DNA from: Portulaca oleracea
Taxonomy: Eukaryota > Streptophyta > Magnoliopsida > Caryophyllales > Portulacaceae
Direction of reading: 5' to 3'
Assembly: GCA_029582165.1 (NCBI GenBank)
Contig: CM055875.1
Span: forward strand, 32,308,644-32,372,643
DNA length: 64,000 bases
Every line of letters begins with the position of its first letter. Positions within the stretch are counted from its first letter, which is position 1. Below, one piece after another: positions 1,261 to 29,664 of this stretch. A model generated the notes under the pieces. That model was given only the letters and a program-made list of their open reading frames with translations. It was not told the origin of the DNA and made no database searches. Both the position numbers and the translations under genes were made by a program.

Positions 1261-2496
1261 TGTAGACCCCGAAAAATTGATAACCTTTTTCGCGGCGCTA
1301 CTTAAAAGTGATTGATTGAGAGCCGACTAGGATTGCTTAACCTTAAATAAGGTTTAACTTTTAAGAATATTTTTGCCGACAGATTAAATCGATTTATGCG
1401 CCATGATCCCGAGATTCACCTTTTTAAGAAAGAAGAAAGAAAGAGATAAAAAAGGAAGGAGAAAACAAGGAAACCCGTCTGGGTTCATCGCTTGAACCAA
1501 GCCGGGTTTCTTTGCTGCAGACCCCCCCCCCCCCAAGAAAAAGACTAAAGGAAAGATTGAAAAGAAGGTGATAAATCCGTCTGGGTTCATGAATTGAACC
1601 GAGCCGGGTTAACTCAGGTGCTATCCGCAAATTGGACCGAAGGAATAGCGAAGCAAAAAGAAAGTGAAAAGAAGACAGTAAACCCGCCTGGGTTCATGGA
1701 TTGAACCAAACCGGGTTACTTCTTGCGCTAATCACAAATTAGGTCAAAGAAACCGTAAAAAAAGGAAGATACCGAAGTATGAGTATAGAGTCGCCAGTTG
1801 AATTTTTAGGAGAAAAAACAACAGACCATTTTGACACGGACTCCGGTCTACGAATCCAAAGATGGATTCGGGGGTAAGGTTACGAATTTGACAATTAAAA
1901 TTGCCAAATCCGCCTATTCAACCGAATAGACTCTACTAGAATTAAATCAAAGCGGAAAAAGTTAAAAGGAGGGGAATTAAGTATGAATCTCACAAGTTTA
2001 ACATTAATGTCATGCAAAATACTGAATTGAAAATACAAAAGAAACGTGAATTCGATAGGTTATACTACATGGTTTACATCAATGATAACTATTCTAACCT
2101 TTAGTGAAGCAGCATGCAAAGGGAGAGAAGAGGTAGAGAGAATTATGCTAGTGTCAATACTCTAGCATAATGTCGTGTCCATGGAAGGGAAAAAAGGGTT
2201 TAATTTATAGTGGAATAGGGGGAGTAGGGGGTGCGTTTTAGGGTTAGCATACGGCCGCGGAACCCAGACGGGTTCCTGAGCTGAACTGAGTTCTGGCCCA
2301 GTAAACTCAGCCGGTTTGATCCGAGCTGAGTTATGCTCTGGCCTATCGAACCCAGACGGGTTTCTTCCGTAATATTGGGCCATTATGCTTGTTTTCGGGC
2401 CAGAAACGAAATGGGTTTGCATGCTACTAAACTACTCGGCTAACTTATTTTTACAAATAACTAAAACTAATACCGGTACAAAATCCGGTGTCTACA
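1261..2496 (-). repeat. 3' LTR of element A
   Basis: Direct copy of 12526-13762. It has a 12-14 base C-run (around 1520), several GTCT/AGAC dyads (1472-1485, about 1569, 2262-2275, 2350-2363) and a minus-strand TATA box. It ends in GTCTACA next to the polypurine tract. Confidence 0.92.
2201..2209 (-). promoter_or_regulatory. TATA box in 3' LTR of element A
   Basis: TATAAATTA on the minus strand. The equivalent box in the 5' LTR is at 13468-13476 and would drive the element's genomic RNA. Confidence 0.5.
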
Positions 2497-2509
2497 GATA
2501 GCCCCCACT
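2497..2509 (-). other. Polypurine tract of element A
   Basis: On the minus strand this reads AGTGGGGGCTATC, directly abutting the 3' LTR. Element B has the same sequence, GTGGGGGCTATC, before its 3' LTR. This fixes the orientation of A. Confidence 0.75.
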
Positions 2510-2654
2510 TTGATCGAGTTTGAGTAAAATGATGATCAAAGTAGTCTTGATGATTTTGGATATGAATCAGAAGCCTGTTCTGAAGCTGGTTGACGCTTGG
2601 AAGCTTGGTCCTGCATCGATTTTGGTTGGCCTGCTTAGTTTCTTCCGTAAAGCT

Positions 2655-3552
2655 GACCGAATTGATCCGCCTCATTTCGCCGTGAGGTAGATCAAGGTCA
2701 TGCACTTCATTTCGCCGTGGAGTGCAAGACCTGTGTATGTATGGGTTGACCTGCTTAGTTTCTTCCGTAAAGCCGGTCGGGGTCGATCCGCTTCATTTCG
2801 CCGTGAGGCGGATCTGGGGGGCATGCTTCATTTCGCCGTGAAGCATGACAGGATGATGGGGTGGTCCACTTCATTTCTCCGTGAGGCGGACCGAGGTGAC
2901 GCGCTTCATTTCGCCGTGAAGCGTGCCGTGATGATGAGGTGATCCACTTCATTTCGCCGTGAGGTGGATCAAGGTGACGTGCTTCATTTCGCCGTGAAGC
3001 ATGCCGTGATGATGGGGTGGTCCACTTCATTTCGCGTGAGGCGACGAGGTGACGCGCTTCATTTCGCCGTGAAGCGTGCCGTGATGATGAGGTGATCCAC
3101 TTCATTTCGCCGTGAGGTGGATCAAGGTGACGTGCTTCATTTCGCCGTGAAGCATGCCGTGATGATGGGGTGGTCCACTTCATTTCGCCGTGAGGCGGAC
3201 CGAGGTGACACGCTTCATTTCACCGTGAAGCGTGCCGTGATGATGAGGTAATCCACTTCATTTCGCCGTGAGGTGGATCGAGGTGACGTGCTTCATTTCG
3301 CCGTGAAGCATGCCGTGATGATGGGGTGGTCCACTTCATTTCGTCGTGAGGCGGACCGAGGTGACGCGCTTCATATTGCCGTGAAGCGTGCCGTGATGAT
3401 GAGGTGATCCACTTCATTTCGCCGTGAGGTGGATCAAGGTGACGTGCTTCATTTCGCCGTGAAGCATGCCGTGATGATGGGGTGGTCCACTTCATTTCGC
3501 CGTGAGGCGGACCGAGGTAGCGCACTTCATTTCGCCGTGAAGCGTGCCGTGA
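2655..3552 (-). repeat. 78-bp tandem repeat array of element A
   Basis: Roughly eleven units of 78 bp. Each holds two CTTCATTTCGCCGTGA half-repeats separated by GTGATGATG or GGATCAAGGTG. Two unit types alternate (GGTGATCC... and GGTGGTCC...), giving a 156-bp higher-order period. As 78 is a multiple of three, long open frames occur (26-residue repeats with RHASRRNEARHL), but they lack a start context or domain and are probably not genes. The array is just inside the 3' end of element A. Confidence 0.9.
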
Positions 3553-4285
3553 CTTGTGTCTTTGTGCTGAAAAGGGTGTCATCGCATTGTGAAGGCCCGA
3601 TGACGGCCACCGAAGATGAGTTCGTCTTTATGTAACCGCCTGACGACCGACGTATCTCGTGCATTGTTCTGCAAAACAGAGAAGGAGGGCATCAGTTTAT
3701 CTGAAAATCAAAGCGAGTCAGAGAATTTACCTGTCAGTTGTGCTTTAGCTTTCGAAAATGGGCTTAAGTTTGCCATTTCTTCATGGGAAATGCTCGAATT
3801 GCATTGGTCCTGAACTTTGGGCCTGTTTTAGACAGAAAACCCGTCTGAGTTACCGCTCGAATTGCATTGGGCTTGAATTGGGGCGACGAGTTTGGGCCCA
3901 TTTTGGCTCTGCAAAACCCGTCTGAGTTCATGCATTGGGCCTGTAATTGCAAGGCCCATTTCGGCTGTGACGAGTTTGGGCCGGCACGTTGGGCTTCGCT
4001 GCGAACCCGTCTGAGTTCCTGCATTGGGCCTGTAATCGTAGGGCCCATTTCGGCTGCGACGAGTTTGGGCCGGCACGTTGGGCTTCGCTGCGAACCCGTC
4101 TGGCGTCTTGTTCTTTTCTCTCTTTTTTTCTTTCTTTTATTTTTTTTCGGCCAATGCATGTGACTTTAGGATAGATTTTAGGATAGATTTTAGGATAGAT
4201 TTTCGGCCAATGCATGCCTTCCATGATACTAATGCTGGGGCCCGCCGGTTGGCCACTTGTGTGGTATGCATGCATCCATTCTTCT
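3553..4285. other. Element A 3' non-coding region with dyad motifs
   Basis: The region holds one CGGGCCTTCACAATGCGATG unit (3590-3610 reversed), which is the unit amplified into an array in element B. It also has repeated blocks ending in AACCCGTCTGAGTT near 3839, 3917, 4004 and 4096, and a triple TTTTAGGATAGA repeat (4165-4203). Homologous sequence lies inverted in B at 21320-21900. Confidence 0.6.
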
Positions 4286-4293
4286 TATAAAAG
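4286..4293 (+). promoter_or_regulatory. TATA box, candidate promoter of the antisense gene in element A
   Basis: TATAAAAG on the plus strand, opposite to element A, followed about 100 bases later by an ATG with a short open exon. The spacing fits a TSS near 4320. In element B the matching region is deleted. Confidence 0.5.
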
Positions 4294-4391
4294 GGGGCCT
4301 CTCCATGCCCTTAATCACACATCCCATTCTTCCACTTCCTTTTCTTGCTCAAAAAAAAAATAAAAAAAATTCATTCACTAGTTAGGAAGCA

Positions 4392-4553
4392 ATGGTTAGG
4401 AAAGTTAGAGATTTGCCCGTTCAACCCCATGCAACAAACTGGGCACATGAAATGTCCTCCCGGCGAGCATGGACTCCTAGGCCGGGTTGGGAACCGTCGA
4501 TACTGGTGCCTGAACCGTGGAATCACGTATGGCACAAGCATTCACATGTCCGG
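4392..4553 (+). pseudogene. Candidate first exon of the antisense PMD gene
   Basis: ATG at 4392 opens 54 codons (begins MVRKVRDLPVQPHATNW) ending in a complete CGG codon directly before a GTAACG donor. Phase 0 matches the next candidate exon, which begins after CCTCAG at 5473. The intron of about 0.9 kb between them is filled with GTCT dyad repeats. That this exon is spliced to the PMD exons is inference from phase, the TATA box upstream and the matching strand. No transcript evidence is available. Confidence 0.4.
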
Positions 4554-4719
4554 GTAACGTCTCCTTCCTGACTCTGCTCTTTAATTATAGCATAAATTTG
4601 CAAGTAGAAATGTTTAATTCTAGCTTGTTGATTTAGCTACAAATAATGAAGTAATTTATGTCGATTACCCGTATTGTTCAAATCGAGCTTTAGATAGGCC
4701 GATTTTTTTAGAATGGAAC

Positions 4720-5340
4720 ACATAGTGAGCCCGTCTGAGTTTGCTGCGTGAGAGGCCCAAACAGGTCCTATTTGAGTTAGTCCGAAAAATGAGCCCGTCT
4801 GAGTTAGTCCGAAAAATGAGCCCATTTGAGCTAGGAACCCGTCTGGGTTATTCCGAAAAAATGAGCGGCCCAACCTTTTTCTCGTGAACCCATTTGAGTT
4901 AGGCTGGAAAATGAGCGGCCCAACGTTTCCACGAGCCCGTCTGAGTTATTCTTTAGGCCGAAAAAAAAAGAGAGGCCCTCAACTCGTGTTGGCCCTTTTT
5001 AGCCCCTAAACTGGTCCATTTTTTAACAGAGAACTCGTCTGGGTTGGGCGAAAAGAGAGGCCCAAACCCCTTTTTTCTTGGAAGAACTCGTCTGTGAGAA
5101 CCCGTCTGGGTGGGCCGAAAAAGAGAGGCCCAACCCTTTTTTTCGCTGATGTGAACCCGTCTGGGTGGGCCGAAAGAGAAAGGCCCAACCCCTTTTTTCT
5201 CTGAAGTGAACCCGTCTGGGTGGGCCGATGCGGCCCAACTTCTCTTGAACCCGTCTGAGCTTCTGCATACGGCCCAACCTCTTTTTTCTTGTGAGAACTC
5301 GTCTGGGCTGAGAGCAAAGAAGCCCTCAATTCGTCTTGGG
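4720..5340. repeat. Array of GTCT dyad motifs, about 50-60 bp spacing
   Basis: Around a dozen copies of a unit built on AACCCGTCTGGGT + GGGCCGAAAAGAGAGGCCCAACC, regular between 5030 and 5310. The array lies in the putative first intron of the antisense gene and inside element A. Confidence 0.75.
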
Positions 5341-5472
5341 TTGGGCCGAATGATTTTTTTAGCCCCCTAATTTAGTGGAAGTTAAATTTAACTTTTGCTA
5401 AACTAGGGATCACTTGATAGTTTGCTGTAGGGACTTGTCTCTTTTTTTTGAATTTTTATGGTGGATCCTCAG

Positions 5473-8241
5473 GAGGATTCCCTCAGAACTGGTGGCAATA
5501 TGCGGAAACCGATCAAGGTGGTGGAGCATTTTGCGGAAGATAATTGGGCGCTTGCACTTTTAGAAGAGTCGGGATTTGACCTCTTCTGGAAATGTGTCAA
5601 GGCCTGGGAACCTTGTACACCACGCGTGATGGGGCGTGCGCTCATGCAGGATTCCACCAAAACCTTCCACCTCCTGTAGGAGAGATGGCCATAACCCTAT
5701 CGACTTTGTGATGATTACAAGACTCTGTTGGGGTGGTCAAGATGTCGAATTCGACCTGTTGTGCGGATCAGGTGATGGAATTATTAGAGCCTGTGCTCGA
5801 ACGGCGCCGATTTGGTCGAAAGATGAAGCTTTCTTATGGTTCCTTCGAGGATGTCATCACTTCTGCCGACTTCACTCATATGGATGAGTTTCAGCGTCGT
5901 TTCATTTTCTTGGCATATTTTATCTCCGCCACGATGTTTGCCAATCGAGGGGACGACGTTTATTTGACCTGGATGAAGAATCTCCTTGATCTAGAGCAGG
6001 TCATTCATCGGAACTGGGCAAAGGCTGCTTATGCTAACTTCATTCGTTGGCTTCGCTTTGGTGTTCGGCCTGGCACTGATGTGGACCCATTCTTTGCACC
6101 GGAGAATCCGTGGGAGATAAGCGGTCCGAGCATGTGGAAGGTGCTCGAGGTAATCTTCGAGACGCTTCTCTTTTACATGCATTTCTCTCTTCTTTTTTAT
6201 ATCATGAGTCTCGGTATTGACATATTTGCAGGTATGGGGGTATGAGTACATTAAGGGATTCACTATCCCTACCCGACACGTCCAGACAGTGTCGGCAGCA
6301 GAACGGTGGCACAAAAACTACCTCGAGCAAAAGAAGAAACCATTTGGGAGCTTAGATGAGTTGCGCCGCATCTTGGATCACCTTGAAGAGGTACATCTTT
6401 CATGTAATCTCTCTTACATTTCTTTGGGGCTTATGTTTCCTTTACTTGTGCAGGATGATGTCAATTGGAATGCCTGGGTTGGCTTCGAGATTCCGCAAGA
6501 CTTTATTCCCTCACGAAATGCGGCGCATAGGGATAGTACCCTGCGCTTGGTGATGGAGAGTCCGTCCGGTTGGGTCTGGAGTCTTGGTGAGAGACTTACA
6601 AGGCAAACCCTGGGCCATGAAAGGTGGATAATACCATCAGACCCACCCGAGACCATGCATGATCCGCGAGCCTTGCATGCCGAGACATTTGTAGCAGCTA
6701 AGAGAGGTTCCTGGTATACTAATCATGCATCGATGGCATCGCCCGACCAATTCTGGGAGGAATGGGAACAATATCGGGACCGCCTGGCCTTCAGAAAGGT
6801 GGGGAAGAAGACCTCTATTTACTCTTTTCATGTTCCTTCTATTACCGCCTAATATGACCAATTCTTTGCTTGTTGCAGTTGGGGCCCTATTGCAAGGATG
6901 ACGAGAAGAGTCAGAGCAGTTCTAGGGATACAGTTTGCGGCTACCCGAGGGCGACTAGTGAGGACATCAAACCGGAACTAGAGAAGATCATGGAAAAGCC
7001 GGTAAGTGAGCCGCCTTTTTCTTTGCTTGCTTGTACCTTGCTCAAACTTTGACCAATTTTCCCTATTCTGTGCAGTGGCGATGGAAACAAGCAAAAGGCT
7101 TCCTCAAAAATTACTTCATACTCAAATGGGCTCGTGAGAAAGACCTTGCGGAGTTACGTGGTTGGGGGCCTTGGCGTGGATGATGATGCACGATCTCGTC
7201 CTGTGGATCCTCCTCGCCATTCAGATGCATACGTGCCTCGTGGCCGGTCGGAGCAGATGGACCTTCCTCGACATTCTTCCTTTATGGCCGACGCGAGGCG
7301 GTCTTATGGGGGTGAAGCTGTTCTCCGAAGGCACGGGGAGAGGAGAGCGCGAGCACGGGCATGCCGCTCACGATGGCCGTGGGAAAGGTATTTTACTCGA
7401 GGATAGTCATTCAACGATTCCCACGGAGACGGGTTTTGGCCACGACTTTCGTGATGCATGGAGAACAACATATCCTCCATGTCTTTAGGTGAGCACGGGC
7501 ATCAGGTGAGGTCTCATGATCATGGGAATTCTCGTCGGAGCCGCGGTTCTCGTCGTGGTACCCCCAGTTTTGTGGTGGAGACAGGCTCCGAGTCTAGCGC
7601 TGTTGGTGGAGCTGTGTGCGGCGAGCAAGAAGGCATTTCACTGCATTTAGGTACTCCTTCAAAATCTCATCATTCGGGGTCTATTCGTCAATCCTCTCAT
7701 CCTTTGCCTCAGTACCCTTATGGAATGCCTGAGTACGTTCCTGCGTCTCCTGCACCGACTGTGGATTTAGGTTATGGCACTTCCTTTGCGGCGGTCGATC
7801 CTGCGTGGTGCTGCGATGATCGGTGCATGCATCGTAGGGTATAACTGCCCTGCGGATGGCGCCTCATCAGTGCTTCCGTCCCAAACTGTTGTACCCGTTA
7901 CTCCTCCGCAAGGAGGTTTGGAGCTACATCGAACGTGTGTTTGGGGAAAAAAAACTCAGGTATGGTCGGGATTGTCTGTCCCAGAGCCTGTAGTAAGATC
8001 TTCCTGGCCCACTCCACAGGGGTGGCCTGGAGGTAATCAAGAGTGGCAAGTTCCAGAACACTCTTGGCTTAATGCGCACGATCAAGTGTTGCACCTATCT
8101 GGCTCAGGTGGCGATACAGAGGTGGTAGACTCCTCCTACTACCAGTGGGACACTTACTTTGGAGCTGGTGGAAGCGGAGCCCATGGGGCTAATAGCGCCA
8201 GTGGTGGTGGCGATATGGAGATCTGGCATGATGAGGACTGA
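5473..8241 (+). pseudogene. Antisense plant-mobile-domain (PMD) gene, exons 2-6 plus C-terminal tail, degraded
   Basis: The exon frames give a plant mobile domain protein (aminotransferase-like/MAIL1-type family, found in host genes and in transposons). Landmarks: LLEESGFDLFWKC (5551-5590), VGEMAIT near 5682, DFVMITRLCWGG (5702-5737), FIFLAYFISATMFANRGDDVY (5902-5964), VWGYEYIKGF (6232-6261). Four introns are seen: 6150-6231, 6391-6453, 6799-6878 and 7002-7075. All are GT-AG and phase 0. Frameshifts near 5681, 5700 and 5790, and a TGA near 7190, break the protein. The tail is Gly/Ser/Pro-rich, with TEVVDSSYY and a stop at 8239-8241. It runs opposite to element A between gag and the 3' LTR, where Tat-lineage elements are known to carry extra antisense ORFs. 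Only the family call is firm. Confidence 0.7.
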
Positions 8242-10339
8242 GAATGATGCACATGCAGGGTCTTTATGCAACGAACCTATGTAATGCTATGTATGACTCT
8301 TTATTATGCACTTAGGACAATGCAATGCAATGATGCATGACGTACGTTTTTTTTATTTATGCACTAGTGCGAACCACTGATGTGATGCTTATGCAATGAT
8401 GGTGCTACGTAATGCACTTTTTTTTATTTTCATGTACCTTTATGCATAATGTAACAATAATGTGCAATGCGATATGCAATCTACATGGTGGGATTACTCC
8501 CACTTCCCCAAACGAAAAAAAGACCGAAAATTAAATGCTACAAGTAAGTTCGAGCTACGATTTGGGGCGAAGACATATAACTATCTTGTGGACCGCATTC
8601 GACCCAAAATAGAGTTGAAGTGGCTCAGTGAGATAGCCCAATAAAGTGGCCCAAACCGTGCAGGTTTCGGGCCCAAAATGATTCCCACCTCTAGGAGGCG
8701 GCCTTTAGAACTCCACATAGGTGGCGGGCCGTCTGCGTTCGTCGAGAAACTCTAACTTGGTGTGCGATTTAAGGAAAGGCGATCTTGGCGTCAGGCAAGT
8801 AAACCCGTCTGGCTCGCCTTCTCCAAATCACAAGCACAAGCCAAACACCATCAAACCCGTCGAGTTTCATTATCCCCATTATTTCCTTGCCGACGTGAAT
8901 CAAATCGTCCTTTCGTCCGATGGCGTCGAAAAGAGAGAGTTGGGAGGTATAAGTTGACTTCTCTGCTAAGTTTGAGGCAAGTGAAAATAGATTGAGATTT
9001 TCGTCTTTCTTTGAAACGATTCAGGATAAGGAATTTTCGATAGGAACAACAAAATCGAACAAAATCAATTCAACAAGCAAGCACAAAGATTAATCTGACA
9101 AAATCAAAACTCGATTCGAAAGAGATAGGAAGAAATTTTCGAATCCCAAAGGAGAGAACAAGTACTTGAGGCATAAATCCGCCAACATTCTAAGAATAAT
9201 GCAAATGCGCGGTTAGTTATGGGCGTAGGTCGATCAAAAAGAACAAACCTCACATAGGAAAGAACAAACACTCAAACACTCAATTTTGAATAGGTATGTG
9301 TGTTTTCTCATACTCAAACCAATAGAAACAAACTACCATAAGCTTGGCAAGAACCTCACTCTCCACTACTGGTATGCAATGCACAAGTGACAATCAAAAA
9401 GACTTTTTCGGGTTGCAACGGGGCTTAGGTTAGGGTAAGGAGCGGTAAAATTTGGGAATGAGGAGTTAAGAGCCATGCTTGGATTGATTTTCAACGAATA
9501 AAACACTCTGAACTCTCCTTCTTGCTTAATGTATGCAAGTCATTTCACCTTTCACCCTGAAACATCTCAACTGAATACAACCAGGTCAAAGTTTTCTGAA
9601 CTTTAAATTGAATCTCCCTAATCACCCTTTTATTTTTGAAACTCTTTTCCTTTTTTTTACTTCTTTTTTATTTTTTGTGGGTGATCGGGGAGAAGAATAT
9701 CTATGGAATCTTCGACTTTGATATAATATATGAACAACATAACCAAATACCAATCGCTCAAGATATGGGACTTTCAGATTCTCCCAGACTTCCAAAAAAA
9801 AAGACAAACTCTCATCCAACCAAGCAAGGCAAAGGGATACTGGATATCAGAGGCCAAGGCTCGTATTGTCAGGGTTCAATCATGAAAAAAGGATAAACAA
9901 AGGCTAGGCGGGGCAAAAAGAACGGTAAATATAATGTAAGGAAGGCTATTTAGCTATGTAGCTTATCAAAATAAAATCGGATGCCTTAATCACTTTGTCA
10001 CAGCGTGCAATGCAAATGTGTAGTCTCAAGCAAGATGCAAAACAAGTTCTAGAGATGCAACTAATGGGTGAGTCACTCAAGGGATCATGGAATTGATAAA
10101 AGTGATCAATTCAAAATTTAGGCAATGTGGACTCACGGGATGGGGCTCAATCAATTAAACTTAGCCCAAAGATTTGCGGCACGCACATTTATACTTTCTA
10201 AGATGGTCAAAGCAGTCAGATACAACTTTCATAACTTGTCTCAAAATCAGAAGGTTTGAAGGAAAAGGTTTCAAAAACTTTTGAGATCTCGTCCAGATTT
10301 TTCTAAGTGAAGCAAGTTAAGGAAAGTAAGAAAGGTTTC
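8242..10339 (-). other. Element A middle non-coding region
   Basis: No gene seen. 8960-10330 is collinear, inverted, with 18900-20460 of element B, including the segment near 10226-10330 that matches 19120-19210. The homology joins the gag relic directly, so the part of gag after residue about 370 and all of pol were lost by deletion in A. Poly-T/poly-A runs and short repeats of TGCAATG occur at 8280-8480. Confidence 0.6.
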
Positions 10340-11411
10340 TGACCTCTGTTGGATGGAATTAGTCTCAGCGGTTTTACGAGGGCTAGGCTCGCTAGTGGCC
10401 CTCTGTTGGAGCTAGATCGAATGTTATGTGCTCTTCGTTGTAAGCAGCTTCAATTTGCACACAAATCCTTGAGTCTCAAAGTCTTTGATAGATTGAAAGC
10501 CAAAATCGGGTGATGCGAGGGTGGATGCTTTGCTTGAAAGTGCTCAATTGCATCCTAAAGGGACTGCCGTCGATCTTTAACGACATTGAGTGCCATCATT
10601 CATAATAAGAGAGGAATGACTCATCATCTCCTTGCTTCATGGAAGTGAGGTCATCTCTGATGACCTCCTTTTGTTGGAGACGACTAAAATGGCTGATGAA
10701 GGTCTTGAACAACTCGTCTGCGTCAGTTTTGATGTGAGGGGGTAGATTTTGGTACCACACCTTGGCCTTACCTTCTAGAGTGGAAGGGAAGACTGTGGTG
10801 TAAAGACTTACTTTGTGAAGAGGGGCCAGCCTCAGGAACTCCTCTAGATGATGAGATGGGTTCTCAGATGGTTTGAACCTGATGCCCGGTACTTCAACTT
10901 TGTCCCTTACCCTTGATACATGGTGTTTGGGGATGGCCAAATCCATGCAAGCGTCTGTAAAGGTTGGATCAACTTTCATCATCCTTCTGGTGAGCATATC
11001 GACCTTCTCTTCGAGTTTTTTGACATAGGGGTCCTCCGAAGTTTTAGAGTTATTCAGTACAAGTTTGGACTTGACTTTACCAAATGACTTAGGTTTTGGG
11101 CCTCCATTTTTGGATTTGGGGTGACCCTCTCCAGCCCCATCATCAGCCTCGGCCTCAGACTCGGAGCCATAATAGTTTTCCTCTTCCTCAAGTTCGATGC
11201 CCAGCTTTTTGTTGATTTGCTTAATGGCTTCCAGCACGCCATTCATAGTTTGTTGATTTTCACTGAACTTCTTTTCTAGCTTCTCATTGGTTCTGTCCTC
11301 CTGGTCTGCCATGCAAATGGCAATTGCTTCCTGTACCCGCTCGTACAGCCCATCAAGTTGCTTGTCACCAGAATTCTCCCCGAAAAGGTTGTTGGCGAGG
11401 GATCCTGACAT
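10340..11411 (-). pseudogene. Truncated gag of element A
   Basis: ATG at 11411 opens a 271-residue frame starting MSGSLANNLFGENSG. It is collinear with the 465-residue gag of element B and includes an acidic stretch near residue 75-90, a KKLEEKVDMLTRRMMK helix and the capsid-core signature LEEFLRLAPLHKVSLY...VWYQNLP. It stops at 10596, where B has an Arg CGA codon and A has TGA (a CpG-to-TpA-type change). Recognisable gag sequence continues out of frame to about 10340. It would act as nucleocapsid/capsid precursor in an intact element. Here only the N-terminal capsid half can be made. Confidence 0.8.
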
Positions 11412-12504
11412 GGTGGATTCACTAGATTCACTGGATTGGGCCGGTGGCCTGTAGTTGGGATTGCGAATAAGTCTGCCGGTTTGTGGGTCACGGATGCGGG
11501 CTCGGAGATGGTCTGCTATCTTGCCTGCATGGAAACTGATTAGTGCTCGAAAGAACCTTTATGCCACCCGCCCAATGCATGCATGACTTAATGGACCTAT
11601 ATGAACCTAGGACATGGACATGACGCCTACATGCTGACATAAGGGCGACTCACCCACTTTTATGGGAGTGCATGTCCTAACTCTATATGGACCTAGCATG
11701 ATGACTGACAGGACTGATACTCATTGGGTGTCTGACTCAAATGGCGTCATAAAGGGCCGAATAGGATCAATAGTAAGTGGATCAGGCTGACTACAGTATC
11801 GAACAGTTTGGCCCGATGTGGAAGGAGAAGAAAAACAGGCTCAAGCGTGCAGGTTTGAGCGTAATCCCTCCCTTTCAAATGGGCATAGACAGGATTCCGC
11901 AGTGAGTCCAACTAGGCCAGGCCCATCAAACCCGTCTGGGTTTAGGCCACCAAACCCGTCTGGGTTTGGGCCAGTCCATCTCTCATTTGATCCTACGCGG
12001 GCTAGAATGGCGTCCCACTCATGATCGGGTTAGACACTTGGACTCAACTTTTACAGGATTAATTTACATGACATACAGATGCGGGATGAGCCTAACCATG
12101 GCTTTAGATCCAGGGTTTTTCTAGGTTTAGGGAGATGAATAGGGTACCACATGTTCTCGCCCCGGTGCATTTTCCTTATATGGAATTCATAGGAAAAATG
12201 TGTGGGGTGTTGCTCTTTGGGTTTCAAGGAAACCTTTAGAGTGTAACACGGGTGAGAGGAGAGATCAAATGCTTGGCGATGTAAGTGCATCCCACAAGTA
12301 GTGACCTCCCGCTCTCGGGATTGATTCCTAGTTTTAAAACCTAAACCAACGCTTTTGTGCTCCCCAGCCATAAAGGCCCAAGAGTAGCCTGGTATGCAAT
12401 ATGCCTAAAAATGATAAAAATGTGAAATAAATTAATTCCTCCCTTTTTTACAAAATTCACTAAAATTTAATTCTTTCAAGTTTTACCCTCTTTTTAAGTT
12501 TAAG
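11412..12504 (-). other. Element A 5' leader
   Basis: Untranslated leader between the primer site and gag. It shares with B the segment containing CATGCATG...GGGCGGGTGGC (11560-11590 against 16365-16390). Two GTCT dyads lie at 11930-11970. No coding frame recognised. Confidence 0.55.
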
Positions 12505-12523
12505 TCCCCAGTGGAGTCGCCAA
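12505..12523 (-). other. Primer-binding site of element A
   Basis: On the minus strand this reads TTGGCGACTCCACTGGGGA, two bases inside the 5' LTR. It is the primer-site type common in plant Tat/Ogre elements, and it fixes 12526-13762 as the 5' LTR. Confidence 0.8.
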
Positions 12524-12525
12524 TC

Positions 12526-13762
12526 TTTAGACCCCGAAAAATTGATAACCTTTTTCGCGGCGCTACTTAAAAGTGATTGATTGAGAGCCGACTAGGATTG
12601 CTTAACCTTAAATAAGGTTTAACTTTTAAGAATATTTTTGCCGACAGATTAAATCGATTTATGCGCCATGATCCCGAGATTCACCTTTTTAAGAAAGAAG
12701 AAAGAAAGAGATAAAAAAGGAAGGAGAAAACAAGGAAACCCGTCTGGGTTCATCGCTTGAACCAAGCCGGGTTTCTTTGCTGCAGACCCCCCCCCCCCCC
12801 AAGAAAAAAGACTAAAGGAAAGATTGAAAAGAAGGTGATAAATCCGTCTGGGTTCATGAATTGAACCGAGCCGGGTTAACTCAGGTGCTATCCACAAATT
12901 GGACCGAAGGAATAGCGAAGCAAAAAGAAAGTGAAAAGAAGACAGTAAACTCGCCTGGGTTCATGGATTGAACCAAACCGGGTTACTTCTTTCGCTAATC
13001 ACAAATTAGGTCAAAGAAACCGTAAAAAAAGGAAGATACCGAAGTATGAGTATAGAGTCGCCAGTTGAATTTTTAGGAGAAAAAACAACAGACCATTTTG
13101 ACACGGACTCCGGTCTACGAATCCAAAGATGGATTCGGGGGTAAGGTTACGAATTTGACAATTAAAATTGCCAAATCCGCCTATTCAACCGAATAGACTC
13201 TACTAGAATTAAATCAAAGCGGAAAAAGTTAAAAGGAGGGGAATTAAGTATGAATCTCACAAGTTTAACATTAATGTCATGCAAAATACTGAATTGAAAA
13301 TACAAAAGAAACGTGAATTCGATAGGTTATACTACATGGTTTACATCAATGATAACTATTCTAACCTTTAGTGAAGCAGCATGCAAAGGGAGAGAAGAGG
13401 TAGAGAGAATTATGCTAGTGTCAATACTCTAGCAAAATGTCGTGTCCATGGAAGGGAAAAAAGGGTTTAATTTATAGTGGAATAGGGGGAGTAGGGGGTG
13501 CGTTTTAGGGTTAGCATACGGCCGCGGAACCCAGACGGGTTCCTGAGCTGAACTGAGCTCTGGCCCAGTAAACTCAGCCGGTTTGATCCGAGCTGAGTTA
13601 TGCTCTGGCCTATCGAACCCAGACGGGTTTTTCCGTAATATTGGGCCATTATGCTTGTTTTCGGGCCAGAAACGAAATGGGTTTGCATGCTACTAAACTA
13701 CTCGGCTAACTTATTTTTACAAATAACTAAAACTAATACCGGTACAAAATCCGGTGTCTACA
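12526..13762 (-). repeat. 5' LTR of element A
   Basis: Copy of 1261-2496 with about ten single-base differences (for example TT in place of the terminal TG at 12526, and a different C-run length). The end is GTCTACA at 13756-13762, followed by the target duplication GCTAC. Confidence 0.92.
13468..13476 (-). promoter_or_regulatory. TATA box of element A 5' LTR
   Basis: TATAAATTA on the minus strand, about 290 bases from the LTR start. Likely promoter for element A genomic RNA. Confidence 0.55.
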
Positions 13763-13950
13763 GCTACTCCAGTGAAGAATACTCTTCTGAAGAAGAATCT
13801 ATCTTCTCGCAAGCAGAGATTGAATCTACTTATACCTTCTTTATGACGGTGATAACAATTGGAGCTGTTAACATGGAAGAAAAGACTGTCAAGCTTGAGG
13901 CTACATTGAGAATAGAAAGCAAAGAGAAAGACAAAAGAATCGACGAGTAA
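13763..13950 (+). pseudogene. C1 gag-like leader, 3' part
   Basis: Continues the frame cut at 1260. The plus frame reads SSEEYSSEEESIFSQAEIES and ends in a charged helical segment (EEKTVKLEATLRIESKEKDK), then TAA at 13948-13950. Such short coiled-coil leaders precede the capsid in several plant Ty3/gypsy gag proteins. Here the tandem array follows instead. The same segment is inverted at 25586-25770. Confidence 0.45.
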
Positions 13951-15108: not shown

Positions 15109-15972
15109 TGTAGACGCTGAATTTTGTATCAGTATTTTTAGTGTCAGTTTTAGAAAATAGGCTAACCGATAAATGGCACGCAAGCCTCTTTCCACCGAAA
15201 ACTCCAAAAAAATATACAAAGCCCAAATGCCGGGAACACAGGTTCAGGTGGCGGAGCTCACTCAACACCACAGAACCGTCTCAGGTTCGATGGCGGAGCT
15301 TAGCTCCGCCCACAGAAACCCGTCTGGGTTCAGTGGGCCAGAGTTCAGCTCCGCCCACAGGAACCCGTCTGGGTTCTGGGCGAGGCCCGTTTCCTTCCAG
15401 AACCGTGCAGGTTTCTGTTGATTCCCACGCGCCGCTTAACTTAGCCTCCAAACCTAAACCTAATTCCCCCCTATAAATACCCACCATTCATCACCCACAA
15501 AAATACACCGGAATATACTGGGAGTATTGACACTAATATATTCCTCTTCTCTTCTCCCTCCATTGCGTGCTTTATTTTAAGGTTAGCGTAGCTTTTTTTG
15601 TATTATTGTAACGTAATCTTATTAGCTTTCTTTGTACTTTCTTTGTTTTTCGTTTCTTGCATGACATTAATGATAATATTATGAGATTTATCTAATTCCT
15701 TCCCTTTTTCAAATCTCGCTTTAATTTAATTCTAGTAGAGTCCGTTCGTTTGAGCAGTGGGTTTGACGATCTTTATTGTCAAATCCGTAACCTTACCCCC
15801 GAATCCATCTTTGGGTTCGTAGGCCGGAGTCTATTTTTACTGGTTTGTTGTTTTATCCTGAAATTCAACTGGCGACTCTAACCTTTTTTTTTTCTCCCCG
15901 AAAACCTTTTTTTTATTTCTTCTTCTCGTGACAGATTACCCAGACGGGTTTCCCCGTCTTGTATTCACCCCG
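15109..15972 (+). repeat. 5' LTR of element B, 3'-truncated
   Basis: Collinear with 22903-23762. After ATTCACCCCG the two LTRs part company: the last 400 bases of the LTR and the primer site are missing here. Confidence 0.85.
15472..15479 (+). promoter_or_regulatory. TATA box of element B 5' LTR
   Basis: TATAAATA in the context CCCCTATAAATACCCACC, also present in the 3' LTR at 23258-23265. Start of transcription expected near the CACAAAAATACACC stretch. Confidence 0.6.
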
Positions 15973-16532
15973 TCAAGGCCAGCCCATCTGTGTTGGTCAC
16001 TGTCGGTCTGGGCCCAGTTTGAAAAGAGAACCCAGACGGGTTTCCTAACCCAGTCTGGCCTTCTCTTTTCTCTTCGGGCCTGACCGCTTCACCTACCTGA
16101 CAACCCAATGCCTTCTTGATGATCCTATTCGGCCCTTTATGACATTCCTAAGTCTAATCCCTATTGTATCACATTACTTGAATCGAGCGAACCAAACCGA
16201 TCGTGACTCGATCCAAGTAAGGACCCAATAGACGATTAATGTTGTCAGTCCGCATGCTAGGTCCATGTAGTGTTAAGACATGCACTCCCATAAAAGTGGG
16301 TGAGTCACCCTTGTGTCAGCATATAGGCGTCGTGTCCATGTCCTAGGTTCATATAGGTCCGCTAAGTCATGCATGCATCGGGCGGGTGGCGTAAAAGTTC
16401 TTTCGAGCACTAATCAGTTTCCATGCAGGCAAGATAACAGACCATCTCCGGGCCCGCATCCGTGACCCACAAACCGGCAGGCTTATTCGCAATCCCAATT
16501 ACAGACTGTCGGCTCAATCCAGTGAATCCACC
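15973..16532 (+). other. Element B leader
   Basis: Non-coding leader with two AGAC dyads near 16030 and 16050, then a part collinear with the A leader (16260-16530). Ends at the gag start, CCACCATGTC. Confidence 0.6.
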
Positions 16533-17930
16533 ATGTCAGCATCTCCCAACAACAACCTTTTTGGGGAGAGTTCTGGTGACAAGCTACCTGATGGGCTATA
16601 TGAGAGGATACAGGAAGCAATTGCCTTCTGCATGGCAGATCAAGAGGACAGAACTAACGAGAAACTGGAAAAGAAGTTCAATGAAAATCAACAAACCATG
16701 AATGGCGTGCTGGAAGCCATTAAACAGATCAACAAAAAGCTCGGCATCGGACTTGACGAAGAAGAGAACTATTATGACACCGAATCTGAGGCCGAAGCAG
16801 ATGATGGGGTTGGAGAAGGTCACCCCAAGTCCAAAAAAGGAGGCCCAAAACCTAAGTCATTTGGTGAGGTCAGGTCCAAATTTATACTGAATAACTCTAG
16901 AACTTCGGAAGACCCTTACGTCAAGAAACTTGAGGAGAAAGTTGACATGCTCACTAGAAGGATGATGAAAACTGATCCAACCTTCATCGACCCTTGTATG
17001 GATTTTGCTATCCCCAAACATTGCGTATCGAGAATAAGGGACAAAGTTGAGGTGCCGAACATGAAATTTAGACCCTCTGAAAATCCATCGCATCACTTGG
17101 AGGAATTCCTGAGGCTGGCTCCCCTCCATAAGGTAGATGAAGGTCTTTACACCACAGTCTTCCCTTCCACTCTAGAAGGTAAGGCCAAGGTATGGTACCA
17201 AAATCTATCCCAGCAAGTTAAGACCAACGCAGATGAGTTATTCAGAGCCTTCATAAGCCATTTCAGTCGCCTGCAGCAAAAGGAGGTCACTGTGGATGAT
17301 TTAACTTCCCTGAAACAAAAGGAGGATGAATCGTTCCTCTCTTATTACGAGCGATGGCACTCCATGTTATCTGAAATCGACGAGTCTGTCCCCTTTAGAA
17401 TGCAACTAAGCACTTTCAGGCAAGGAATCCATCCCCGCATCACTCGGCATTTTGGTTTCCAATCCATCAAAGACTTTGAGACTTTAAAGGACTTGTGTGT
17501 TCAAATTGAAGCTGCTATAAATGAAAAAAGCACACAACATTCTGGTTGGAAAGGATCTAGCTCCAACAGGTGGGCCACTAGCGCGCCTAGCCCCCCTCAG
17601 AAAACTGTTGAGACTAATTCCATCCAACGAAGACAATACACTCCGAGGTTCGACTCTTACCACCCGTTGGATATGTCTTATGCCAGGGCATTGGAAAGAC
17701 TGGTGAAAAAGGGTATCATCCAATTGCCCCTGCCAACCCCTGAACCTGAAGATAAGCCTCCGAAGTGGGATGGGAACAAATACTGCAATTTCCATCGCAG
17801 TCGAGGTCACGACACCGAAGTATGTTGGTCTTTGAAAAATAAGATCGAAGGACTAATCCGAGACAGTGTTATTTCCCCATCAAACCCACCTCGGAAGCCT
17901 ACTACGGCTTCCCAAAACCGCATTATCTGA
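16533..17930 (+). CDS. gag: gag polyprotein of element B (Tat/Ogre lineage)
   Basis: An uninterrupted 465-residue frame from an ATG in good context (CCACCATGTC). In order: N-terminal Asn/Ser segment, an acidic Glu-rich stretch (about 75-92), a helix KKLEEKVDMLTRRMMK (about 130-146), the Retrotrans_gag capsid core (about 180-300) with LEEFLRLAPLHKV, VWYQNL and FISHFSRLQQKEV, then YARALERLVKKGIIQLPLP and a zinc-knuckle variant C-x2-H-x4-H-x4-C (CNFHRSRGHDTEVC, about 425-438) typical of Tat gag. It would form the virus-like particle and package element RNA. The frame ends at TGA after QNRII, with no protease fused or following. It is the only apparently intact retroelement protein in the nest and could act in trans if expressed. 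Confidence 0.88.
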   Translation: MSASPNNNLFGESSGDKLPDGLYERIQEAIAFCMADQEDRTNEKLEKKFNENQQTMNGVLEAIKQINKKLGIGLDEEENYYDTESEAEADDGVGEGHPKSKKGGPKPKSFGEVRSKFILNNSRTSEDPYVKKLEEKVDMLTRRMMKTDPTFIDPCMDFAIPKHCVSRIRDKVEVPNMKFRPSENPSHHLEEFLRLAPLHKVDEGLYTTVFPSTLEGKAKVWYQNLSQQVKTNADELFRAFISHFSRLQQKEVTVDDLTSLKQKEDESFLSYYERWHSMLSEIDESVPFRMQLSTFRQGIHPRITRHFGFQSIKDFETLKDLCVQIEAAINEKSTQHSGWKGSSSNRWATSAPSPPQKTVETNSIQRRQYTPRFDSYHPLDMSYARALERLVKKGIIQLPLPTPEPEDKPPKWDGNKYCNFHRSRGHDTEVCWSLKNKIEGLIRDSVISPSNPPRKPTTASQNRII

Positions 17931-18205
17931 AATCTCAAGGGATCCTGGTGGCGGGATTAGAAATCTTCAATGACTGTGCTGTCACCACGACCGCTACATT
18001 CATCCCGCCCAGGAGGAGCCGTCCACCTTTGGAATGGACTCACCTCGCTGGAGGTGGCATCTTTGGAAAGCTCTTCGAACAAGAGGCCCACAAGGAAGAA
18101 GCCGTCGACCCAGTCATCGCCGCGCTTTCTAACCCGAGCTTTAATCCAAGTCTGCTGATTGGAGAAGATGGCGACCACCATGAGATCACCTATGAAAGAG
18201 AATAA
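17931..18205 (+). pseudogene. Unassigned frame downstream of gag in element B
   Basis: An open frame offset from gag (about 85 residues, no ATG at its head) reads LEIFNDCAVTTTATFIPP... and ends in TAA at 18203-18205. It might be a leftover of the gag-protease linker, but there is no DSG/DTG protease motif. Function not recognised. Confidence 0.25.
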
Positions 18206-18900
18206 ATTCACTCATGCGTAGGATGATGCATCCCCAAAGGTCATAGAGTCAGGTTCTAGTAGTCCTAAGTTGGTCGGGGTAAACCCAGAGTCTGTTGATG
18301 TACCCATTTCTGCATTTAATAAGATGAACACTTCTGCTTACTCGAGCTATTGTGCCCTTAAAAGAACAATCGACTGATTAGGCCAAGCAACTAGAATGCC
18401 TCTCTCTAGACACTTGGCTTTAACCCAGATGAGTTTAATGTGGAATATGGATGAAGAAAGAGCGACGACAGTTTGAGAGTGTTGAGAAACCCAGATGGGT
18501 TTCGTGGCGGAGTTAGAATGCGAAGATCACATGCATAGACGGCGTCGCAAGGATGCTAGCGAAACCCAGACGGATTCCACCGACCTAACACCACCGCCAG
18601 ACGGGTTTTTGGGCTCAAATCGCATCATTACCAAACCAGGAACCCAGACGGGTTTCTGGGCCCTGTTGCCACACTGATCCCCAAGCCAGGAACCCAGACG
18701 GGTTTCTGGGCCCTTCTGTCGCAATTTCCAAGCCAGGAACCCAGACGGGTTCGTGGGCCATTGTACTCCCTTCCTCGGCCCATCTGCTGTAGGCCAAAAC
18801 TCCTTTCGGGCTCTCAACTCGGGCAGTTTTCCATTGGGCCCGATTATGGTCGCGATGCGGGTCCACGAGCTAATTATGCGTCTTCGCTAGCCCTGAAACT
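18206..18900. repeat. Non-coding stretch with AGAC dyad cluster, element B
   Basis: Between 18485 and 18750 there are six near-copies of AACCCAGACGGGTTT. The last four are spaced about 45-50 bp and share the flank CCAGGAACCCAGACGGGTTTC. No gene is seen. Confidence 0.7.
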
Positions 18901-20561
18901 GTAGTTCGAATTTACTTAATCATCTTTTTTTTTTTTTTTGTTTGGGGAAGTGGGAATGATCCCACCATGTAGGTCGCATATTGCATTACATAAGTTCCAC
19001 GTCTCTCATCATGTAGGTCACATATTGCATTGCATGAGCATCATATCAGTTTTAGTCATAAGGTTAAAAAAAAAACAAAAAAGAGTCCTTGACCTTTTCT
19101 AAAAATCGACTTTTTTTCCCGACTTAACTTGCTTCACTTAGAAAAATCGGGACGAGATCTCAAAAGTTTTTGAAACCTTTTCCTTCAAACCTTCTGATTT
19201 TGAGACAAGTTATAAAAGACGTATCTGGCTGCTTCGACTATCTTAGAAGGTATAAATGTGCGTGCCGCAAATCTTTGGGCTAAGCTTAGTTGATTGAGCC
19301 CGTCCCGTGAGTCCACATTGCCTAAAACTTGAATTGATTACTTCATCAATTCCATGATCCCTTGAGCGACTCACCCATTAGTTGCATCTCTAGAACTTGT
19401 TTTGCATCTTGCTTGAGACTACAGATTTGCATTGCACGCTGTGACAAAATGATTGAGGCATTCGATTTTCTTTTTAAGCTACATAGCCAAATAGCCTTCC
19501 CTGCATTGTATTTACCGTTCTTTTTTTGCCCCGCTTAGCCTTTGCTCACCCCTTTTTTTTGATTGAACCCTGACAATACAAGCCTTAGCCTATGATATCC
19601 AGTACCCCTTGAGCCTTGCTTGGTTGGAAGAGAGTCTGTCATTTTTGGAAGGAACAATTGGTTTGGTGTGAGCAAAATATGAAGTCTGGGAGAATCTGAA
19701 AGTCCCATATCTTGAGCGAATTTGGTTATGCTGTTCAAAGTCGAGGTTGTAATAGAAATTTCTTCTCCGTGATCACCCAAAAAAAAAATCAAAAAAAAAA
19801 ACCAAAAAAAAAAACCAAAAAAAATTCAAAATAAAAGGGCGGTTAGGGAGATTCAACTTAAAGTCCAGAAAACTTTGACTCGGTTGTATTCGGTTGAGAT
19901 GTTTTAGGATGGAAGGTGAAACGCTTTGCATACATTAAGTGAGAAGGAGAGTTTAGAGGATTTCATTGAAAATCAATCCAAGCATGGCTTTTTAACTCCT
20001 CATTCCCAAATTTTTACCACTCCTTACCCTAGCCTAAGCCCCGTTACAACCCGAAAAAGTCCTTTTGATTGTCACTTGTGCATTGCATACCCGTAGTGGA
20101 GAGCGAGGTTCTTACCAAGCTTATGGTAGTTTGCTTCTATTGGTTTGAGCATGAGAGAAACCCACATACATATTCAAAATTGAGTGTTTATTCCTTCCTG
20201 TGTGAGGTTCGCTCTTTCTGGCTAGCTTACGTCCATAACCAACCGCGCATATTTGCATTGTTCTTCGAACTGTTGGTGGACTTATGCGTCTGAGTTACTT
20301 GTTCTCTCCCTTAAGATTCGAAAACTTCTTCCTATCTCTTTCGAACTGAGTTTTGATCTTGTCCAGATTAATCTTTGTGCTTGCTTGTTAGTTCGACTTT
20401 GTGTTGATCGAAAATCCTTTATCCCGGATTGTTTTCAGCAGTATATAGAAAGTCATAACTGCATTGCATAACACCATCATTACATGAGCATTGCATCAAC
20501 AGTCTGCATTAGTACATAAGTATAGAAAAATGCATTTAGTACATCATTGCATAGCATTGTC
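18901..20561 (+). other. Element B middle non-coding region
   Basis: Collinear with the inverted 8960-10330 of element A, so it is ancestral to both. Poly-A/poly-T runs occur at 19780-19830. No protein domain recognised in six frames. Confidence 0.6.
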
Positions 20562-20882
20562 CTAAGTACATAGCAAAGAGTCGTGTATAACATAGCGTAA
20601 GAATCCTGCAGACGCATCGTTCTCAGTCGTCATCACGCCAGACCTCTGTGTCGCCACCGCCACTAGCGTTATCAGCTCTATGGACCCGCCCACCGGATCC
20701 GGCGTAAGTGTCCCACCGTAGTAAGAGGAGTCTACCATCTCTGTATCGCTACCGAGCGGATAAGTGCGACGCCGGCACGCTGCATTTTCGAGTGGCCGCT
20801 TAGAAAAATTCAATCGAGTTTCCATTAAGCCGGGAGCTGTTTGAATCCAAAAAAGGAAGCAAGTCACTACAGCAACCATCAA
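20562..20882 (-). pseudogene. Remnant of antisense PMD gene C-terminus in element B
   Basis: On the minus strand a frame carries SDTEMVDSSYY (near 20700-20760), the counterpart of TEVVDSSYY at the C-terminus of the antisense gene in element A, at the same place relative to the 3' LTR. All upstream exons, including the PMD itself, are deleted in B. This shows that the antisense gene belonged to the common ancestor of A and B. Confidence 0.6.
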
Positions 20883-21944
20883 TTGACTCCCAGTTTAGCA
20901 AGAGTTAAATCAAACTGCCACTAAACTGGGGGCTATGTAGCCCAAGCAAGGGGACAAATCGGCTGGAACAGTCTGCCTAGGTCCACAAAGTCCACCATAA
21001 AAATTCAGAAAAGTCCCTACGGCAGCCTATCAATTGACCCCTAATTTAGCAAAAGTCAAATTGAACTTCCACTAAATTAGGGGGCTAAAAAAAAATTATC
21101 TTTCGGCCCACTAAGAACACAGACAGGTTGCTGAAAGAGTTGGGCCACGCTTTTGGCCCACCAGAACCGAGACGGGTTCCATTAAGACGAAAGCATTTGG
21201 GCCTCGTTATTTTCGGCCCAACTAAAGCCGGGCCTCGTTTTCTTCGGAAAGAACGCAGCCGGGTTCACAGACGGGTTCTTCCTAAATCCTAAAGCCCAAC
21301 TCAAACGAATTCAAAACACAAGTGGCCAAGCGGCGGGCCCCAGCAGCAAGATAATGGAGAGCATGCATTGGCCGGAAATCTATCCTAAAATCTATCCATG
21401 CATTGGCCAAAAGGAAAAAAAAAAAGAAGAGAAGCCGGCCCAGTTGCTGTGTAAAAAAAGAAACAAAGAAAAAAGGAACTTGGACGGGTTCCACGAAGCT
21501 GGCCCAATGTATCGGCCCAGTCGAATTTGCAAACGGAAATGGGCCTGCAAGATGTCAGACGGGTTCCGGAAAGAATGCAGACAGAACCAGCACAACCCGT
21601 CTGCGTTTTGAGCCCAATTTTGAGCCCAACTTACCTGGGCAGCTCATGAGAACTGGGACGGGTTCCTAGTGCACTCACCAGCAAATTGGGCCTTGAATTT
21701 GCAGTCCACTAGAACTTGGACGGGTTCTTGCTTGGCTTATGGCAAAGCCAACGAGCCCAAGATTGTGCTCTAGTTCAAGCCCAAAGCAATGGCAAATTTC
21801 AGCCCACTTCCGAGAGCTAAAGCTGACAGGTAAATTCTCTAACTCGTTCTGATTTTCATATAAACTAATGCCCTCCTCCTCTATTTTGCAGGACAATACA
21901 CGAGGTACATCGTCAGGCGGTTACAAAAGATGAACACACTTTTT
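20883..21944 (+). other. Element B 3' non-coding region
   Basis: It has two related blocks with CCACTAAA(C/T)T(G/A)GGGGGCTA (20920-20936, 21070-21086), also seen inverted in A near 5365. It also has many single or diverged GACGGGTT motifs and a block inverted relative to 3700-4270 of A (GCATGCATTGGCCGGAAATC). No coding frame recognised. Confidence 0.55.
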
Positions 21945-22765
21945 CAGCGGCCATCATCGGGCCCTCACAATGCGATGACAGCGGCCACCATCGGGCCCTC
22001 ACAATACGAGGATACACTTTTCAGCGGCCATCATCGGGTCCTCACAATGCGATGACAGCGGCCATCATCGGGCCCTCACAATGCGATGACAGCAGCCACC
22101 ATCGGGCCCTCACAATACGAAGACACACTTTTCAGCGGCCATCATCGGGCCTTAACAATACATGACATCAGCCGTCGCCGGGCTAATACGCGACACTTCA
22201 TCACCAGCGGCCGTCATCGGGCCCTAACAATACATGACACCATTAGCGTCAGCGCTAATACGCCGACATTTCTCTACCACGCCGCCATCCGGGCCCTAAC
22301 AATACATGACATCATCACCGCCACGCTAGTACGCGACACTTCATCAATCGGCCATCATCGCCGGGCCTTCACAATGCGATGGCGCCATCGTCGCCTTCAC
22401 AATACGACGAGGCCAACGCCGGCCTTCACAATGCGATAGCGGCCATCATCGGGCCTTCACAATGCGATGGCGGCCATCATCGGGCCTTCACAATGCGATG
22501 GCGGCCATCATCGGGCCTTCACAATGCGATGGCGGCCATCGTCGGGCCTTCACAATGCGACGAGGGCCATTGTCGGGCCTTCACAATGCGACAAGGGCCA
22601 TCATCGGGCCTTCACAATGCGATGAACATCACATCTACATCGGCGCAGGACCCAGCTTCCAAGCGTCAACAGCGGCCATCGTCGGGCCTTCACAATGCGA
22701 CGAGGGCCATTGTCGGGCCTTCACAATGCGACAAGGGCCATCATCGGGCCTTCACAATGCGATGA
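21945..22765 (+). repeat. 31-bp tandem repeat array of element B
   Basis: Unit GCGGCCATCATCGGGCCTTC + ACAATGCGATG. It is regular at 22430-22620 and 22670-22765, with longer diverged forms before that. The 31-bp length rotates the frame, so all three frames stay open and repeat the same peptide in turn, which argues against coding. The array lies just upstream of the polypurine tract. Confidence 0.88.
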
Positions 22766-22890
22766 GCATCACATCTACATCGACGCAGGACCCGGCTTCC
22801 AAGCGTCAACCAGCTTCAGAACAGGCTTCTGATTCATATCCAAGATCATCAAGACTACTTTGATCATCGTTTTACTCAAACTCGATCAAA

Positions 22891-22902
22891 GTGGGGGCTA
22901 TC
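22891..22902 (+). other. Polypurine tract of element B
   Basis: GTGGGGGCTATC immediately before the 3' LTR start TGTAGACG, identical to that of element A. Confidence 0.75.
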
Positions 22903-25580: not shown

Positions 25581-25585
25581 TGACT

Positions 25586-26055
25586 TTACCCGTCGATTCT
25601 TTTATCTTTCTCTTTGCTTTCTATTCTCAATGTAGCCTCAAGCTTGGCAGTCTTTTCTTCCATGTTAACAGCTCCAAATGTTATCACCGTCATAACGAAG
25701 GTATAAGTAGATTCAATCTCTGCTTGCGAGAAGATAGATTCTTCTTCAGAAGAGTATTCTTCACTGGAGTAGCCATGGTCTTCAAAGCCCTCAAATCGTT
25801 AGAGTCCACAAGGTAAAGTCTGCTTTGAGGCGAAGGTAATCGTAGTTGGCTTCCAAGATTGAGGAGCCCTTTGAGTTGTTGCCCCCAACGTGATGGAGCC
25901 GGTAATTGGATTTTTAAGTAATTGAGTTGGTGCATTCACCGTTGGTTTTTCTAGCGTCGTAAAAATAGTAGCGGTGACAGTTGCAATCCTTCGAGTCGTT
26001 GCTCAAACGATGTGACACATGTAGTTGTTGACCCCTGGGATGAAGCTTGAGTCAT
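25586..26055 (-). pseudogene. C2 gag-like leader, frameshifted
   Basis: Inverted copy of 974-1260 plus 13763-13950, uninterrupted by element A. Relative to C1 it has a one-base deletion near 26010 (TCGTTTGAGC against TCAAGCGGAGC), which shifts the N-terminal frame. The downstream part still reads QQLKGLLNLGSQLRLPSPQS. It gives the undisrupted form of the site where A inserted in C1. Confidence 0.5.
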
Positions 26056-26160
26056 CCTCCTTGTTGAGAGTCGAGAGACAACTTTCTAGGGTGTCATCAC
26101 GTCGCTTGAGTCGAATGTTGAACTTGATTTCTTGGAAAAGGAGATGAGAGGCAGAGATGT

Positions 26161-26180
26161 CCCACCGGGCGTGCCAAATT
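26161..26180 (-). other. Primer-binding site of C2
   Basis: On the minus strand this reads TTTGGCACGCCCGGTGGG next to the LTR end, like the C1 site. Confidence 0.6.
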
Positions 26181-28838: not shown

Positions 28839-28840
28839 AC

Positions 28841-29525: not shown

Positions 29526-29635
29526 GTAGTTGGAATTCTTATATATCTGATCGTCATGCTTTAGTCGTATTCTTCATTATTTTGGTCATTTATTCTCTAT
29601 ATTATTTGTATTGGTATTCATATACCTAAATGACT

Positions 29636-29664
29636 CCCATTCGAAAGAATGGGTAAAAAACTAG
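29636..29664 (+). mobile_element. Helitron 3' terminus
   Basis: A perfect 7-bp hairpin CCCATTC-GAAA-GAATGGG, then TAAAAAA and CTAG followed by T. This is the hairpin-spacer-CTRR|T signature of Helitron 3' ends. Its 5' end was not identified. Confidence 0.6.

Follow-up and report, generated by a model that had tools for sequence, protein, structure and literature searches.

Can a retrotransposon, which is copied through RNA, carry a gene that keeps both its introns and its own promoter? The question is raised by a 64,000-nucleotide stretch of the Portulaca oleracea genome (the window; assembly GCA_029582165.1, contig CM055875.1, forward-strand positions 32,308,644 to 32,372,643). It contains element A, a gag-only Tat-type long terminal repeat (LTR) retrotransposon at 1261-13762, whose sense strand is minus. 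On the plus strand of element A lies a gene with a TATA box, a first exon of 54 codons, a run of exons encoding a plant mobile domain (PMD) and five introns. We consider it quite probable that this PMD gene is an antisense accessory of an Ogre-like family of Ty3/gypsy retrotransposons in the Tat lineage, and that it would be transcribed, spliced and active in trans. Its structure, recurrence and antisense position, and the selection on its codons and splice sites, are seen directly in the genome.

A PMD gene with five introns on the antisense strand

The plant mobile domain profile, PF10536, has a curated cut-off of 34.9 bits. Exon 2 alone scores 15.7 bits, exons 2 and 3 together 26.8, and exons 2 to 4 36.5; single exons of the window copy thus stay below the cut-off, which the spliced in-frame exons pass (36.5-36.6 bits). 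When exons 2 to 4 are translated with the 63-nt intron kept, which is open in frame, no PMD match is found at E up to 5. This loss, together with the rise of the score upon joining, independently supports introns 2 and 3. The profile match does not reach introns 4 and 5, whose basis is conserved splice sites and codon statistics among copies. A read-through translation with X at the frame breaks reaches 53.4 bits (E 3e-14). Searches for relatives beyond this genome found none: 3432 candidate proteins gave no match at E<=0.001, no solved structure matched at E<=1, and no viral contig matched.

A search of the genome (1.13 Gb) with positions 5745-7183 returned 839 candidates, 40 of which were scored; all 40 match at 92-100% along almost its full length, and the introns are part of the match. 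Splice-site and selection statistics were computed on 30 of them, each with 1.5 kb on either side. Introns 2 to 5 (6150-6231, 6391-6453, 6799-6878 and 7002-7075, all phase 0) had been placed exactly by an earlier reading of the sequence alone. Their donors are GT in 120/120 cases and their acceptors AG in 116/120 (30, 28, 30 and 28 of 30, respectively). The lengths of three of these four introns are not multiples of three. Minor cells of the alignment number 5/480 at GT/AG, against 246/6450 within introns (Fisher p 5e-4).

The same sequence-only reading had proposed the TATA box and first exon, and both turn out to be conserved among the copies. The TATA box (TATAAAAG, 4286-4293) recurs in all 10 copies in which it can be judged, those that cover exon 1 in full together with 100 nt or more before it; in each, TATAAA lies 95-107 nt before the ATG. 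In the window, the full motif is one of two plus-strand occurrences, and the looser TATAAA[AT] occurs 26 times on that strand. A conserved block precedes it at 4181-4262, 89% identical in a second element of the window, element B. Exon 1 (4392-4553) is matched in 22 of the 30 loci and is not present in the covered flank of the other eight.

Exon 1 is joined to exon 2 by a fifth, 5' intron that the sequence-only reading lacked. This intron 1 (4554-5472) is mostly hypervariable; its donor is GTAA in 24/30 copies and its acceptor AG in 28/30. Near its 3' end, at 5365-5408, a hairpin of about 18 pairs, G-U included, is conserved among copies and in element B, and folds more strongly on the plus strand (-19.8 vs -13.6; 31 sequences, 23 distinct). 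Upstream of this hairpin, the motif AACCCGTCT or its complement is found 202 times across the 30 copies. The window as a whole has 38 such occurrences, at many places within 1-25000, compared with 0.3 in mononucleotide shuffles.

The PMD begins in exon 2 (5473-6149), which is delimited by the profile and the copies. A start of this exon at 5487 was rejected, as that frame meets a stop in nearly all copies and the frame from 5473 is open in most. Exons 3 (6232-6390) and 4 (6454-6798) rest on the profile, whose match ends in exon 4, and on the ratio of nonsynonymous to synonymous polymorphism (pN/pS). Exon 5 (6879-7001) has a pN/pS of 0.22. Exon 6 (7076-8241), drawn from open reading frames (ORFs) and copies, is a long variable tail up to the stop codon.

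Across 371 exon codons pN/pS is 0.192 (bootstrap 0.147-0.245); the other two frames give 1.29 and 1.31. The start of exon 2 gives 0.33 (0.96 and 1.36 in the other frames), and exon 1, in 21 copies matched by tblastn, 0.25 (0.56 and 0.82). The latter replaces a discarded value of 0.68, whose alignment included loci without exon 1.

The gene also occurs in C15, one of four 16.5-kb LTR pairs in the genome, of which we read 11.3 kb (L050-L053). There it is 83% identical to element A over 4610-7630, with the donors and acceptors of introns 2 to 5 kept. One open frame of L050 scores 53.8 bits for PMD with no exon joining. Between the 30 copies and L050, dN/dS is 0.113, compared with 1.49 and 2.45 in the other frames. 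Introns 2 to 5 (6150-7075) differ from those of C15 by 7.6-10.1%, well under the exon dS of 0.25, which points either to constraint on these introns or to a higher mutation rate at synonymous sites.

The window copy no longer encodes the whole protein. Three frame changes fall in its exon 2, within about 5670-5771, and the last exon has more. The frame-change cluster of exon 2 (5655-5785) is partly common to three other copies of the 30 (L020, L031 and L044), so part of the damage is older than the transposition of these copies. The term complete transcription unit, once applied to this copy, is therefore not supported for it: it is not among the 8 of 30 copies that are free of stops and frame-changing indels over exons 2 to 5. 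One might suppose that the gene does nothing for the element and is a mere hitch-hiker or relic, since many copies are frame-broken and element B is without nearly all of the gene. We hold this to be very improbable in view of a pN/pS of 0.19 and a dN/dS of 0.11, both with proper frame controls.

Introns that match those of a host PMD gene

Scoring 117 of 5314 candidates for host family members, we found two similar genes, one on C7 and one on C5, with the layout of MAIN/MAIL-type genes. When the element is aligned with the gene on C7, LLQ/CW (host) and VLE/VW (element, intron 2) are coincident junctions in phase 0. PTD/VEW and LEE/DDVNW, at intron 3, are two residues apart, again in phase 0. 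The profile positions agree: exon 3 of the element starts at 181, where one host match ends, and the next host match starts at 238. Intron 1 of the element falls at a similar but poorly aligned place in the host, and the fourth host intron does not coincide with element introns 4 or 5.

Could the two matching positions be coincidence or independent gain? The comparison covered no more than two host genes, themselves close relatives, and neither intron 1 nor introns 4-5 align with host introns. Against this stand one identical junction and one two residues off, both in phase 0, in agreement with the profile; two such coincidences would arise by chance in about 1% of cases or less, by a rough estimate that was not computed. 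We judge either unlikely. The shared introns would imply that, in moving between host and element, the gene took the form of DNA or of unspliced antisense RNA rather than that of processed mRNA. On balance we favour, with some reserve, a lineage that carried a whole intron-bearing gene, its introns homologous to those of host silencing genes, through rounds of reverse transcription by antisense placement.

The direction of the exchange is another matter. Host MAIN/MAIL-type genes may have been domesticated, introns included, from such a retrotransposon gene rather than captured by it, and we give this somewhat less than an even chance. It is the direction favoured in PMC5418596, which nonetheless calls the ancestry of Gypsy PMDs, which form clades of their own, PMD-A1/A2, relative to genic PMDs fully open. 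The shared introns are compatible with either direction, but only two match within two residues, so that much must have been gained or lost on either side.

At four high-copy PMD loci of this genome that we examined, the domain lies in one open frame, with a MULE transposase domain alongside in two of the four. Two matching arrays of PMD genes, at C19:19.49-19.62 Mb and C24:3.78-3.91 Mb (L001-L005, L008), likewise have the whole domain in one open frame.

The carrier elements and their surroundings

Element A has the LTR pair, target duplication and gag of an LTR retrotransposon. Between its 3' LTR (1261-2496, minus) and 5' LTR (12526-13762, minus), of 1236 and 1237 nt with ends read by eye, we count 8 substitutions and 3 gapped positions, and the insertion is therefore recent. 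It is bounded by the target site duplication GCTAC (1256-1260 and 13763-13767, by eye). A candidate polypurine tract (2497-2512, minus, by eye) adjoins the 3' LTR, in a flank (2497-2620) that is 96% identical in element B. The primer binding site (12505-12522, minus) was read from the sequence; it is a candidate for the tRNA-Arg type that is a trait of the Ogre clade. A 78-nt tandem repeat array adjoins the 3' LTR at 2624-3552; at the matching place, element B has an array of different, shorter units. Element A is inserted in an older element, an inverted copy of which lies at about 25069-27029.

The gag ORF (minus strand, 11558-10596) matches Retrotrans_gag with 29.4 bits (9.5e-07), above the cut-off of 24.1, and is truncated relative to that of element B. 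Between gag and the antisense gene the longest minus-strand frame has 83 codons, so element A is without a pol ORF. In place of pol, beside gag, stands a conserved noncoding domain of 1.3 kb (9014-10321, minus), recognized by comparison with element B and genome copies. Its divergence (K) between elements A and B is 0.12, against a gag dS of 0.65 and an LTR K of 0.31-0.45, and it lacks codon periodicity (51/48/42 vs 117/40/46 in gag). A genome search gave 3138 candidates, of which the 40 scored all match at 94-100%. No unusual RNA fold was found in 12 windows per strand (lowest z -1.94), and we did not find the domain in the part of C15 that was read (11.3 kb).

LTR matches in the genome pair at about 7.5, 9.7-11.3 and 16.5 kb. 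In C15, from the longest class, the PMD gene lies between pol and the 3' LTR, opposite to reverse transcriptase (RT), RNase H and a second RNase H, each above its cut-off, and to integrase matches below theirs. The second RNase H, which in Ogre and Retand lies between RNase H and integrase, marks the Tat lineage; C15 has RT_RNaseH, RVT_3 and the integrase matches below cut-off in this order, and element A is without pol. The gene had been thought to replace pol. Since this 16.5-kb relative, the one examined, has both, it did not. Traits of the Ogre clade include a tRNA-Arg primer binding site and an intron between the GAG-PROT ORF and the RT ORF; in C15, a single copy, one frame extends from 23289666 into RT and takes in a protease-like stretch (by eye).

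L049, which flanks the copy nearest to element A, shows the same order of LTR, leader, noncoding domain and antisense gene. Most of gag is missing there, and the noncoding domain is its best-conserved part (94.8%). The PMD gene is again antisense in L049, in C15 and in C19:10256368/10259069. Element B (15109-24161) lies in the opposite orientation to element A, flanked by GACTT (by eye), and bears gag; its 5' LTR is shortened at the inner end. Between the gag of elements A and B, dN/dS is 0.12 and dS 0.65 over 317 codons. Element B has nearly lost the antisense gene; what remains is the block upstream of the TATA box, two copies of the hairpin of intron 1, and the last codons with the 3' region.

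Elsewhere in the window, we observed a Copia element (48444-53473, flanking repeats 97.7% identical), two LINE-like regions with RVT_1 and zf-RVT (59612-63327 and 28293-36503) and, on the minus strand at 39489-40124, a frame with Pumilio-family RNA-binding repeats.

Function, precedents and meaning

By deduction, the introns survive because the genomic RNA, the template of reverse transcription, comes from the opposite strand, where their splice signals cannot be read. This fits everything seen. Host polymerase II would transcribe the PMD gene from its own promoter, the transcript would be spliced, and the PMD protein, presumably a chromatin protein, would act in trans for the family. Action in trans is suggested by the multiplication of gag-only elements and of copies whose PMD gene is broken or missing. 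Because MAIN and MAIL1 function in silencing and gene regulation (PMC5418596, PMC7156037), the likeliest role, which we advance tentatively, would lie in disturbing or redirecting the PMD-dependent silencing that the host applies to the element.

Several observations weigh against this account. At least one in-frame stop is present in aligned exons 2b-6 of 14/30 copies, and 22/30, element A among them, are not clean over exons 2 to 5. The tail segments of exon 6 reach a pN/pS of only 0.39-0.70 in their best frame. Short introns treated as coding scatter from 0.31 to 3.96, so ratios of short stretches are noisy and weight was put on the long exons. In the alignment of L050 the acceptor of intron 1 is non-canonical. 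The element and C7 host proteins share only 26% identity over 209 residues (BLASTP, E 2.9e-07).

The useful product could instead be the antisense RNA itself, pairing with genomic RNA and regulating the element via double-stranded RNA, with the protein of little weight. Overlapping opposite genes do exist here, the conserved hairpin is stronger on the plus strand, such a role has been proposed for antisense ORFs (PMC7264820), and tea PMD genes yield phased small RNAs (PMC10673657). A role of RNA only would, however, need no selection on codons and splice sites, and we consider it improbable beside that of a protein-coding accessory gene.

Extra PMD ORFs of Tat elements are located between pol and the 3' LTR, and those of Ogre (Tat) elements are reportedly the subject of Steinbauerova 2011; HBZ of HTLV is known to be spliced. 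PMD is found in 57% of Ogre elements (PMC6317226) and is the commonest non-canonical domain in another survey (PMC9289625). The present gene resembles the former in having a PMD in an extra ORF of a Tat element, and differs by its five introns, conserved TATA box and demonstrated selection, as well as by its presence in gag-only copies. Introns in extra ORFs are not mentioned for Ogre elements in the excerpts of PMC6317226, whose supplementary tables were outside the search. Retand and Grande also have an antisense gene between pol and the 3' LTR, encoding a different protein domain, TRP28 (PMC11963269, PMC7264820); the word intron is absent from the main texts of both papers. In Grande that gene has its own promoter and a nuclear protein, and a study of antisense and spliced transcripts is asked for by its reviewers (PMC7264820).

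HTLV-type retroviruses, too, have a gene opposite to gag-pol in a reverse-transcribing element; unlike that of element A, it has its promoter in the 3' LTR and encodes an unrelated protein (PMC7264820). Host MAIN/MAIL genes share the PMD and, in a host gene of this genome, at least two introns placed alike, but they are chromosomal, and the excerpts of PMC5418596 and PMC7156037 report no surrounding retrotransposon. We found no mention of introns in antisense PMD genes in the excerpts of the literature that were searched; supplements and Steinbauerova 2011 were outside that search. A PMD ORF in a Tat element is of a known kind, and what appears new is its intron-bearing form and the match with host genes.

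Antisense placement would let an element copied through RNA hand on a complete gene of host style, with its introns and promoter retained. Surveys that seek long antisense ORFs would split such genes at their introns and undercount them. The matching introns in MAIN/MAIL-type genes make the ancestry question of PMC5418596 testable by intron mapping across plants and, if the homology is true, the shared introns would serve as a marker for deciding in which direction descent ran between MAIN/MAIL genes and retrotransposons.

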